A stretch of DNA of 53,427 bases from an uncultured bacterium (GTDB lineage Bacteria > Verrucomicrobiota > Kiritimatiellia > CAIKKV01 > CAIYGI01). A program made the translations under genes and the position numbers. The notes beneath the pieces are model-generated. The model saw nothing but the letters and a program-made list of their open reading frames with translations. It searched no databases and was not told the origin of the DNA. The DNA lies in the NCBI GenBank assembly GCA_903925685.1, contig CAIYGI010000336.1, positions 1 through 53,427 on the forward strand, written 5' to 3'. Below, one piece after another: positions 31,459-42,097 of this stretch (its first letter is position 1; each line of letters opens with the position of its first letter).

Positions 31459-31804
31459 GGCACACCTCCCGTAGTGATCGTTCGACTCCAATACAAGCCA
31501 TGCATCCTTTATCTCCTCGTCATGTGCGGCCTGCAAGAATCGCCGTTACAACTCCTCGAAGTAAGAACCTGATGCGCCGGGATTTCAAGCCTTTTCTTTT
31601 GCCCAGTACGGGTTGAGCATCAAACTCTCGGCGCCGCCCGAAATCGGCAATCTTGAATCTCCTGTATGATTCTGCCACTTGCCACAATACTAAACTACGA
31701 AACACGCGAAAAGCGCGAAAAAGATTGGTTGGCGAAGCGCTCTTGCATTGTTCCCATTTTCGCGTCTTTCGCGTTTTTCGTAGTTTCCTCTTCTCCAGCC
31801 ATCA
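31459..31804. repeat. Gene-free stretch with an inverted repeat
   Basis: The main feature is AAACTACGAAACACGCGAAA (31692-31711) with its imperfect complement at 31757-31786 (TTTTCGCGTC...TTTTCGTAGTTT). This is a dispersed-type palindrome similar in style to the CACGAAGAACACGAAG repeats near 50758 and 53186. The rest shows nothing I can name; it is followed directly by the galE stop. Confidence 0.65.
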
Positions 31805-38821: not shown

Positions 38822-39103
38822 CTACTTGACCAGCCCCACGACGCGCGAACGGCGGATCGCCTTGGCGATTTGCCGCTGCTGCTCGGGCGTACACCCGGTG
38901 CGCCGGCGGGGCATGATCTTGCCCTGCTCGGTCACGAATCGCCGCAGGAATTCCGGGTCGTTCAGGGCCAGCTCCTTGACCCCTTCCATAGGCAACGCGC
39001 GCCGCCGCATCACGCCGCCCATCATATTATTGCTGTCCCTGTCGCGATCACGATCGCGGTCGCGGTCTTTGTCTCGTTCCCTGGCAACAATTCGCATAGC
39101 CAT
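38822..39103 (-). CDS. rpsR: Ribosomal protein S18 with an Arg-Asp repeat N-terminus
   Basis: A 93-residue S18. The conserved core is DPEFLRRFVTEQGKIMPRRR (~49-68) followed by CTPEQQRQIAKAIRRSRVVGL. The zinc-binding cysteines of some S18 proteins are absent. The first ~25 residues are an unusual run of Arg-Asp pairs (RDKDRDRDRDRDRD), encoded by a near-hexamer repeat at ~39030-39080, not found in standard S18. The usual neighbour, ssb, is displaced by a ~2-kb insert. Confidence 0.92.
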   Translation of the reverse strand: MAMRIVARERDKDRDRDRDRDRDSNNMMGGVMRRRALPMEGVKELALNDPEFLRRFVTEQGKIMPRRRTGCTPEQQRQIAKAIRRSRVVGLVK

Positions 39104-39140
39104 ATTCGTTCTCCTTGTTACTAAAATCCTTTTCGCCGCT

Positions 39141-39184
39141 TCACACTAAAACGACAGATTGTCTTCGACCGGCATTCCCGGTCC
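39141..39184. repeat. 44-bp duplication of the ssb 3' end, displaced copy
   Basis: Matches 41167-41210 at 39 of 44 positions by direct count, including the stop codon and five bases beyond it. It forms the 3' end of the SUMF1-fold gene. Confidence 0.85.
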
Positions 39185-40519
39185 AACTGCCGTGTCCGCG
39201 GACGCACTGGAATCAGAAGCCTGTTTGGTGGCCGCAATAATCACCAGCCCGTTCTTCATACAACATTTCGTTTTGTTATTCAAGTTTTTCATGCCCGCTA
39301 CAGATGTTGCTTGGCGAGATGCGATCCCAACGGTCTCTGTGAGCAAGACAGTCCGGAAGCCAATCTGTCGGTCGGCGGTGTCCGGGTAGTAGTTGGGGCG
39401 AAAAGCAAGCCGACAGAAGTCGGTGCCGTAGGACCAACTGCCGCCGCGAAACACGCGGTACGAACCCGAAGTCGCACCTTGCGGATCACTCACCGTGCCG
39501 GGGTAACTCCCGTACCAGTCCAGGCACCATTCCAAAACATTTCCGTGAATGTCGTACAGCCCCCACTGATTTGGCAGATAACTGCCGACTTGGGCCGTCG
39601 CGCCTGATGTATCCACAGACTGTTCGTAGTTACTGCCGCCGTTATACCAGTACCGCCCAACCTCGGACATGTGCGCGTCACTGTTCGTGTTGGTAAGGTT
39701 GTAGCCCGAGTTCAGTGCAGTGGTCGTGCCGGCCCGGCCGGCATACTCCCATTGCGACTCCGTCGGCAGGTCGAATGTCTTTCCCGTACGTGCCCGCAGT
39801 CGGCCCATGAACGAATCTACGTCCACGTTGCCGTTGGCAGGCCAGTTTGTGCCGGCGCTCGCCCCGCGAATGTCGTTGTAACTCACCTGTTCAACTGGAC
39901 GGGAATCGCGATAACTGGTGTTATTGAACCAACTCGGCCAGGTTCCCATGACCCTTTCCCACTGCTTCTGCGTGACATCGAAGACGCAAATGTAGAATGG
40001 CTGCTTCAGGGTGACTTGATGCTGGGTTTCGTCGTCGTATCGCCCGAGTTCGTTCGTAGGCGAGCCCATCGTGAAGGTACCCGCCGGGATACGCCGAAAC
40101 ACCAGTTTGGTGGTCTTGTATTCTTCCGTCCATCCGCCCGCGGGAACGGTTGTCAGATAACTCACCGGGTAGTTCGTTGCCGACGGACCGGCAGAAAGGT
40201 CAATCATCATGTAGTCGGCAATCTCTGCCACAACTCGGTAGAAACAACTCGCCTCACTCACGCCCACCGTTGCCATGTTCTGACTGTAATCACGTGCCAC
40301 GATGCCCGTCACGCCGGGCGAACCGGTGTACCACACACCTGTAGGAGCATTCGCCCATTCCACCCGATATACGGTGGCTGTCGTGAATTCGCTGAAAGTC
40401 AGTTGTCCAGTGATATCGAAGGACTTGATCACCAGATCCGCCGCCTGGGTTAAACGCCCTGTATACATTACGCCACCCGCCATCGCCAATACCAACAACC
40501 ATATTCGTGACTTCATCAT
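39146..40519 (-). CDS. Secreted SUMF1/FGE-fold protein with an SSB-like tail
   Basis: About 457 residues with a signal-like N-terminus (IWLLVLAMAGGVMYTG). Residues from about IPAGTFTMGSP on are the formylglycine-generating-enzyme fold: ETQHQVTLKQPFYI, DLPTESQWEYAGRAG, GLYDIHGNVLEWCLDW, RVFRGGSW and IGFRTV. The two catalytic cysteines of true FGE are not both present (only one, in DFCRL), so it is probably a binding or other FGE-like protein. After the fold, a lysine/cysteine-rich linker leads to GPGMPVEDNLSF, nearly the SSB C-terminus, encoded by a copied ssb end. Start chosen at 40519; 40543 is possible. Confidence 0.8.
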   Translation of the reverse strand: MMKSRIWLLVLAMAGGVMYTGRLTQAADLVIKSFDITGQLTFSEFTTATVYRVEWANAPTGVWYTGSPGVTGIVARDYSQNMATVGVSEASCFYRVVAEIADYMMIDLSAGPSATNYPVSYLTTVPAGGWTEEYKTTKLVFRRIPAGTFTMGSPTNELGRYDDETQHQVTLKQPFYICVFDVTQKQWERVMGTWPSWFNNTSYRDSRPVEQVSYNDIRGASAGTNWPANGNVDVDSFMGRLRARTGKTFDLPTESQWEYAGRAGTTTALNSGYNLTNTNSDAHMSEVGRYWYNGGSNYEQSVDTSGATAQVGSYLPNQWGLYDIHGNVLEWCLDWYGSYPGTVSDPQGATSGSYRVFRGGSWSYGTDFCRLAFRPNYYPDTADRQIGFRTVLLTETVGIASRQATSVAGMKNLNNKTKCCMKNGLVIIAATKQASDSSASADTAVGPGMPVEDNLSF

Positions 40520-40643
40520 GACTTGCCTGTTTTCAATCTTCATCACGAGCCCGCTTTTAATGGCCACATTGCGTAGGACTCGCCATCGTAAATTTCCACA
40601 AATATGTGGCATTGGCCTACTGTCTGAGGAAATCCGACCACCA

Positions 40644-40886
40644 CTAAGACCGTGGCCCTGCGGTCTTTCTGGAGAGACTGTAACCCAAAAGGATCAAGAG
40701 AAGAGAAAGTAAAGTCCCAGTGGTATACCAGAAGACGTAGAAGTTCGCGGGCAACTCGGGTGGAACTCTGCTAGCCCATTGGGCGGAGTTGATCACCGGC
40801 AGAAACGTGACGACAAGGCCCACGGCACCGGCCAGAGCCAGAACGAAACCAAAGATCGCTCGACATGTTGTGAATAGCGACTTCAT
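40644..40886 (-). CDS. Small two-span membrane protein
   Basis: About 80 residues with two hydrophobic segments (IFGFVLALAGAVGLVVTFLP and VFWYTTGTLLSLLLILLGYS) separated by a short outside loop. It starts MKSLFTTCRA at 40886; the longer frame upstream overlaps the next small gene. I do not recognise the family. It sits inside the insert between ssb and rpsR with the SUMF1-fold gene. Confidence 0.5.
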   Translation of the reverse strand: MKSLFTTCRAIFGFVLALAGAVGLVVTFLPVINSAQWASRVPPELPANFYVFWYTTGTLLSLLLILLGYSLSRKTAGPRS

Positions 40887-40896
40887 AAGACTGAAC

Positions 40897-41172
40897 TCAG
40901 AATTGACGGTCCAACCAATAGTACGCTCGCGTCGCTCCGTAAACAGCCGGATCGACAAACCAGTCAAATACAACCGTGCCGAATCCGTTCTGCAGAAGGT
41001 TCCCGTACGTCACGTCGGTGAACTCCTCGCACTTCGACCATTTGCCTATGTTCCGCGAGATAAGCATGTCTCGAATCCAGGTGTTCTTGCTGTAGCCCCA
41101 GTAGCTTATTGTGAGCGCTGTCGGCGACGTAGCATTTTTGCAACTCTTGGGTCTTAACCCCACGTTCCACAC
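40897..41172 (-). CDS. Hypothetical 91-residue protein in the ssb-rpsR insert
   Basis: A GTG start shares one base with the ssb stop. The product is rich in aromatic residues (YWGYSKNTWIRDMLISR, VFDWFVDPAVYG, YYWLDRQF), which makes a chance frame unlikely, but there is no family I can name. The N-terminal residues just after the duplication may not be native; an internal start is possible. Confidence 0.45.
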   Translation of the reverse strand: MWNVGLRPKSCKNATSPTALTISYWGYSKNTWIRDMLISRNIGKWSKCEEFTDVTYGNLLQNGFGTVVFDWFVDPAVYGATRAYYWLDRQF

Positions 41173-41210
41173 TAGAACGGCAGATTGTCTTCGTCCGGCA
41201 ATCCCGGTCC
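41167..41210. repeat. 44-bp duplication of the ssb 3' end, ssb copy
   Basis: Partner of 39141-39184. The pair brackets the ~2-kb insert in the ribosomal/ssb operon. Confidence 0.85.
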
Positions 41211-41714
41211 CGCTCCAGAATTCACGGCTGAGCCCGATGTAGAGGCCGCCGCTGCGACTGCGGGAGTGGGCGCAGCAACAGATGGCGACGCCCTATCTGG
41301 CGTTGACGCCTGGGCCGTCCCACTGCGGGCCGCTGTATTTGCGGATGCGCCATGCGGGGCTTCGCCGTCGGCTGTCCGGCGGGGCGGGGGCCCCACGAAC
41401 TGGGTGCGTTCCGCCACCACGCGCACGCAATTGCGCTTTTGGCCGTCCTTCTCCCACTCGTCGTACTGCAGCCGCCCCTCGACGAAGAGCGGCGAGCCCT
41501 TGGACAGGTACTGGCCGCAGGTTTCGGCCTGCTTGCCCCAGACCACCACGTCCACAAAACAGGTCTCTTCCTTGTCCTCGCCCTGCTGTGTCTTGAAACG
41601 TCTGGTCGTCGCCAGCCGCAGAGTGGCATTGGCCATGCCGGAGGGCATATAGCGCACCTCCGGATCACGGGTCAGATTGCCGAGCAACAGCACACGATTG
41701 ACTGAAACGTTCAT
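41172..41714 (-). CDS. ssb: Single-stranded DNA-binding protein
   Basis: A 180-residue SSB. The OB fold runs from NRVLLLGNLTRDPEVRYMPSG (~6-25) through FVDVVVWGKQAETC and GSPLFVEGRLQYDEW to ~110. A long alanine/serine-rich linker ends in GLPDEDNLPF, the tip that recruits repair and replication proteins. It follows rpsF by 11 bases. The last codons and the stop are duplicated at 39141-39184, 2 kb downstream, marking the edge of an insertion. Confidence 0.96.
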   Translation of the reverse strand: MNVSVNRVLLLGNLTRDPEVRYMPSGMANATLRLATTRRFKTQQGEDKEETCFVDVVVWGKQAETCGQYLSKGSPLFVEGRLQYDEWEKDGQKRNCVRVVAERTQFVGPPPRRTADGEAPHGASANTAARSGTAQASTPDRASPSVAAPTPAVAAAASTSGSAVNSGAGPGLPDEDNLPF

Positions 41715-41725
41715 GCCGGACGATC

Positions 41726-42097
41726 CTAACGGGAATACCGGTCATGCGGCGCGCGATAATCGTGATCGTCGCGCGGGGGGCGGTCTTCGCGCGGCGCCGG
41801 CGGAGGGGGAATGCCCTTCGGCAACTTGCCGATCTGGGTGCGGAAGATATCCTCCATCAGGCGAAAGCGCGGCATCAGGGCCGTCACCTGCTGCGGGGTC
41901 ATTTCGAAAAAGACCGTCACGTACCAGCCGGCCTCGCATTTCTGCATCGTGCGGGCAAAAGGCCGGCGGCCCATCGCGCGCACTTCCAGCACCTTGCCGC
42001 CGTGCTTTTCGATTTCGGCGCGAACTTGGGCGGTGATGCCCTCCACCCGATCCTCGGGCAGTCTTTCGTGGTAGATAAACAACCCTTCGTATGTCAT
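41726..42097 (-). CDS. rpsF: Ribosomal protein S6
   Basis: A 123-residue S6 with YEGLFIYHERLPEDRVEGI at the start, GKVLEVRAMGRRPFAR and EAGWYVTVFFEMTP in the core, and a basic/proline-rich tail. Start overlaps the pth stop in ATGA. It binds 16S rRNA with S18, encoded a few genes downstream. Confidence 0.95.
   Translation of the reverse strand: MTYEGLFIYHERLPEDRVEGITAQVRAEIEKHGGKVLEVRAMGRRPFARTMQKCEAGWYVTVFFEMTPQQVTALMPRFRLMEDIFRTQIGKLPKGIPPPPAPREDRPPRDDHDYRAPHDRYSR

Follow-up and report, generated by a model that had tools for sequence, protein, structure and literature searches.

The window, the 53,427-nucleotide stretch of DNA analysed here, carries on its minus strand the order rpsF, ssb, a 91-aa ORF, an 81-aa ORF, a gene of the SUMF1/FGE fold, rpsR, rplI and dnaB (Table 1). 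In the genome to which it belongs (G000; 4.12 Mb in 347 contigs, 96% complete, with the look of a metagenome bin) ssb and rpsR lie about 2.03 kb apart, with the ssb end present as a direct repeat on both sides of the interval. According to an earlier note on this DNA, three unrelated genes break the order rpsF-ssb-rpsR. The interruption is present, but homology supports only the SUMF1 frame as a gene.

Table 1. Features of the interrupted ssb operon (window coordinates)
Feature	Position	Strand	Basis or remark
rpsF	41726..42097	-	first operon gene; open reading frame, syntenic in 29 relatives
ssb, 180 aa, ending in the probably incoming tail PDEDNLPF	41172..41714	-	PF00436, E=2e-34
Last ~50 codons of ssb, possibly of foreign origin	41172..41324	-	poorly alignable to G001; GC3 0.59 vs 0.79 upstream
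Repeat copy A (attL-like), core 41167-41210	41163..41227	-	ssb end
91-aa orphan ORF with its GTG start at the ssb stop; may be a gene fragment	40897..41172	-	no convincing match
81-aa hydrophobic ORF from ATG (109 aa from an upstream TTG); orphan	40644..40889	-	no convincing match
SUMF1/FGE-fold protein, 457 aa, apparent signal peptide	39146..40519	-	PF03781, E=7e-42
C-terminal extension of the SUMF1-fold protein, 64 residues; last ~20 are the probably displaced ssb end PVEDNLSF	39146..39340	-	
Repeat copy B (attR-like), most likely the native ssb end, core 39141-39184	39137..39201	-	52/62 vs G001 empty site, continuous into rpsR
rpsR	38822..39103	-	directly downstream of ssb in 29/29 relatives examined

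The two copies of the repeat (39137-39201 and 41163-41227) align without gaps and are identical at 51/65 positions. Their core (39141-39184 and 41167-41210) is the 44-bp repeat that had been described around the insert; 39 of its 44 bases are identical, so that copies A and B differ at 5/44. The pair has a BLAST E of ~3e-13. Elsewhere in the window the next best gapless match to the 65-mer is 34/65, and composition shuffles gave a maximum of 33/65. When up to 3 mismatches were allowed, the core was found exactly twice in the whole of G000, at these two sites, and once in G001. The likeness between A and B runs on for about 10 bases beyond the stop codon. As had been claimed, the second copy is read in frame as the last residues of the SUMF1-fold protein (ORF 40519-39146, minus strand).

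About 2 kb of DNA is inserted at the 3' end of ssb, with duplication of that end. The empty site is seen in G001, the only genome of the same genus that was found, where ssb has a single tail and is followed directly by rpsR. Its locus (L011) is 94.0% identical to the window up to 39198 and 95.8% from 41325, with one ssb end between; it is the relative with adjacent ssb and rpsR that the earlier note had proposed as a check. The order rpsF-ssb-rpsR-rplI is uninterrupted in 29/29 relatives of the same genus, order and class, two of them with one operon end outside the fetched stretch. The insert was seen in G000 only, and its GC content is 0.55 vs 0.63-0.64 in the neighbouring operon genes. No close pair of intact SSB-tail codings on one contig was found among 146 genomes of the class with a pattern that misses decayed copies such as B. 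A search of G000 for further copies of the insert gave only SUMF1 paralogues and no additional tail. A plasmid origin was dropped at the DNA level, where the region had no match.

About 100 bp near pth in G001 (L011:3002-3102) also match the window, at 86%, in a different and unrelated place (31692-31792), which suggests a dispersed repeat in the genus.

Probable native and incoming ssb ends

At neutral sites copy B agrees with the empty site of G001: both have ATG where copy A has TTG, and TTT where copy A has TTC. After the stop codon copy B continues GAAGCGGCGAAAA...rpsR as G001 does, and copy A does not. Copy B is identical to the G001 empty site at 52/62 positions, and native-looking sequence is found slightly upstream of the A/B core as well. 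Copy A agrees with G001 against copy B only at selectable positions, namely GAC (Asp) and CCG (Pro). On the strength of these neutral sites copy B would most likely be native and copy A incoming, with the caveat that a few states are common to A and B but absent from G001 (see below). The account given earlier, in which the insert brought its own ssb tail and pushed the old one onto a passenger gene, fits these diagnostic sites.

Cargo and probably displaced SSB tail

The best solved relative of the SUMF1 protein, by sequence, is Treponema denticola variable protein 1 (TvpA, 2y3c; E=1e-23), a known DGR target protein. The family is abundant in the class (109/288 genomes at E<=1e-40), and a paralogue of the gene lies elsewhere in G000. 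For neither of the small ORFs was a convincing relative found in the 288 genomes of the class. The 91-aa ORF had no match in phage or plasmid records either, and a phage or plasmid origin by protein was set aside; abutting the ssb stop, this ORF may be a truncated fragment. No reverse transcriptase (PF00078) was found in G000, G001 or G288 (a rumen bin, see below), and DGR homing was rejected as the cause of the insertion. Since G000 has no reverse transcriptase, the window's SUMF1 protein would be at most an orphan variable protein of the DGR kind.

Among the close homologues of the SUMF1 protein, most terminate no further than about 10 residues from the GFR motif. The window's protein extends for 64 residues past the matched part, and this extension is absent from most homologues. 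For the ~40 residues before the ssb-derived end (TETVG...ATKQ; within window 39149-39340) there was no match in 2.2 Mb of fetched loci. The displaced tail itself is decayed. The SSBs of the window and of its relatives end in Pro-Phe in 30/30 cases, and 27/30 have Asp or Glu at position -7. Copy B reads PVEDNLSF, in which the penultimate Pro has become Ser (NLSF) and the acidic residue at -7 has become Val; it lacks the combination of acidic stretch and terminal Pro-Phe of a functional SSB tail. The same Pro-to-Ser change is present in the E. coli ssb-113 protein (P176S), which is temperature-sensitive (PMC4118853). The simplest reading is that the tail on the SUMF1 protein is a decaying, non-functional fossil. 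The earlier note had expected a tail on an exported protein to be useless for DNA work, and so to be either a fossil or newly employed; loss of the invariant penultimate proline agrees with a useless tail, and nothing was found in support of a new job.

Mode of insertion

We lean towards site-specific integration of a small mobile unit at the 3' end of ssb, which would have left a CIME-like relic. The unit, ~2 kb now and possibly larger once, would have integrated in the G000 lineage, most simply after the split from G001. Its own ssb-end copy (A, attL-like) would complete the present ssb, and the native end (B, attR-like) would have been displaced to the rpsR side and fused in frame with the SUMF1 gene of the cargo; the SSB tail on this apparently exported protein would be the fossil described above. 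The likely reaction would be a single-crossover (Campbell-type) integration, catalysed by a tyrosine-type integrase which either has since been lost or acted in trans, and the product would be a relic with both att copies kept and the integration genes gone. The enzyme, the circular form and the former size of the unit are what we infer in this reading.

In ICEs and IMEs, tyrosine integrases act on short repeats of 2-60 or 8-60 bp, preferably at the 3' ends, sometimes at the 5' ends, of tRNA and housekeeping genes (PMC5704250, PMC4701971); in a CIME the att sites are kept and the integration genes lost (PMC5704250). The length of the repeat and the 3'-end target fit the reported elements, which counts for integration. 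Such events are known in kind; what is new here is the ssb target (unnamed in the ICE/IME surveys PMC5704250 and PMC4701971, though earlier reports elsewhere are possible), the in-frame fossil tail and the small size. Between the repeats lie only the SUMF1 gene and the two orphan ORFs and no integrase, as had been noted before; an integrase-bearing related element at ssb was not found in the 29 relatives. Several tyrosine recombinases are encoded elsewhere in G000. The integration reading is weakened by the missing integrase, by the A/B differences at 5/44, by the single carrier genome and by a divergence of ssb that starts upstream of the core.

This last point bears on a second explanation, to which we give roughly half the weight. 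Linear DNA with a foreign ssb 3' part (e.g. from an element-borne ssb) and the cargo would have recombined near codon 130 in a homology-facilitated replacement. The other junction would be illegitimate, just upstream of the native tail, with deletion of ~100 bp of native linker, and the apparent duplication would be the donor tail plus the retained native tail. Such replacement is known from competent bacteria and from E. coli (PMC3240628). From about codon 131, upstream of the repeated core, the window's ssb no longer aligns well to that of G001, and copy B retains native sequence slightly upstream of the A/B core. GC3 is 0.79 in ssb codons 1-130 and 0.59, insert-like, in codons 131-180, and is 0.82 in the G001 linker. 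SSB linkers are fast-evolving, but the foreign stretch in ssb may begin upstream of the core, a pattern that replacement would explain better than one simple crossover within the core would. However, the likeness of A and B for ~10 bases past the stop is unexpected with an unrelated donor ssb, and no donor with this gene order is known, rpsR following ssb in every relative examined.

A purely local origin is improbable. The ssb end would have been tandemly duplicated in the lineage, and unrelated DNA captured later between the copies; the few states that A and B have in common and G001 lacks (CCGGGA, GAC, TAG) are in keeping with this. But two steps would be required, the intermediate was not seen in the 146 genomes of the class, and A and B differ at neutral sites, with only B matching G001. 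An assembly or binning artefact, by which the insert was misplaced between ssb and rpsR, might be suspected in a metagenome-like bin of 347 contigs but is very unlikely, as the copies, 78-89% alike, are too different for repeat collapse, a single 53-kb contig runs through both flanks, copy B has substitutions found in neither A nor G001, and a SUMF1 paralogue is present elsewhere in G000.

SUMF1 units at other gene ends and comparison with known systems

SUMF1 loci were scanned for bracketing repeats (296 SUMF1 segments in 181 loci). In the rumen bin G288 a 1,358-bp unit (L131:1986-3374) has tRNA-Val on one side and, on the other, 31 bp that repeat the tRNA-Val 3' end exactly; the only evident gene of the unit encodes a 401-aa SUMF1 protein. 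The empty site is present in five close relatives (G290, G291, G293, G294 and G295), in which a radical-SAM gene abuts tRNA-Val with one copy of the 31 bases; both flank alignments of L131 with these five overlap on them. Like the ssb insert, this unit is integrase-less, carries a SUMF1 cargo and has a duplicated target 3' end and an empty site in relatives. It differs in its exact 31-bp repeat, its tRNA target and its single gene, and its SUMF1 cargo keeps a normal end and faces the intact target gene. The analogy with integration at tRNA ends, drawn in the earlier note, thus has a parallel, in which the action of an integrase would again be presumed. The one match to a tyrosine recombinase in G288 is a frame of 317 aa, perhaps Xer. 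Because G290 has a 71% similar SUMF1 gene ~3.7 kb from tRNA-Val, the L131 unit could be of local origin.

A weaker parallel is found in Oligosphaera ethanolica (L085:3315-8650), where a complete DGR consists of a SUMF1 variable protein, an avd-like ORF, a reverse transcriptase and a template repeat, with 21/35 adenine sites changed vs 1/109 others. Its 5.3 kb are bracketed by the start of murF (codons 4-22) and a 57-bp, 91% copy of it, and no integrase lies inside. When the window's SUMF1 gene was compared with the Oligosphaera template, only a weak adenine bias was seen (11/15 A, 10/41 other). L131 and the Oligosphaera DGR are the only further gene-end cases in the 181 loci among the repeats examined, the rest of which proved to be terminators, contig ends or SUMF1 copies in tandem; the idea that SUMF1 genes generally occupy gene-end duplications was accordingly discarded. 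A tRNA-end copy was seen in L131 alone among 47 tRNA entries, some of them from overlapping loci. No terminal motif common to the ssb insert, L131 and L085 was seen by eye.

Eight related rumen genomes (G288-G295) have 15-40 SUMF1 matches each. Among them SUMF1 segments of 1.3-4.7 kb are present or absent at the same place, mostly without target duplication (L211, L235 and L268 vs L232, L215 and L246).

Conceivably, though we think it unlikely, SUMF1/DGR-target genes of the PVC group move as very small integrase-less cassettes, driven in trans, into the ends of tRNA and housekeeping genes, where a target of 31-65 bp is duplicated and rebuilt. The ssb insert, the tRNA-Val unit and the Oligosphaera DGR would then be three cases of one unrecognised kind; the idea draws on two or three cases, from SUMF1 loci only. 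The parallel at tRNA-Val hints that SUMF1 lectin-like proteins, abundant in these bacteria, might on occasion be spread in compact units; such spread would be relevant to the separation of DGR-type variable proteins from reverse transcriptases. The locus in the window illustrates cleanly how DNA can enter an essential ribosomal-protein/ssb operon, with ssb probably preserved by a replacement end and the displaced SSB tail visibly decaying. Were an integrase responsible, ssb would join the 3'-end targets used by small islands.

Among known systems, the insert resembles a CIME, a decayed ICE or IME or a relic genomic island in its 3'-end direct repeats on both sides, its probably rebuilt target and the absence of integration genes. 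It differs from these in its size of ~2 kb, in carrying no recognisable mobility gene and in having the displaced end in frame with a cargo gene, and from an autonomous ICE, IME or prophage in having no integrase gene inside the repeats. With DGR variable proteins the window's protein shares the SUMF1/C-type-lectin fold and a variable-looking stretch before the terminal GFR motif, whereas G000 has no reverse transcriptase and the SUMF1 gene no template repeat. Copy B encodes a recognisable SSB C-terminal tip; it differs from a genuine one in the Ser for the penultimate Pro, in the Val at -7 and in its place on an apparently exported protein.
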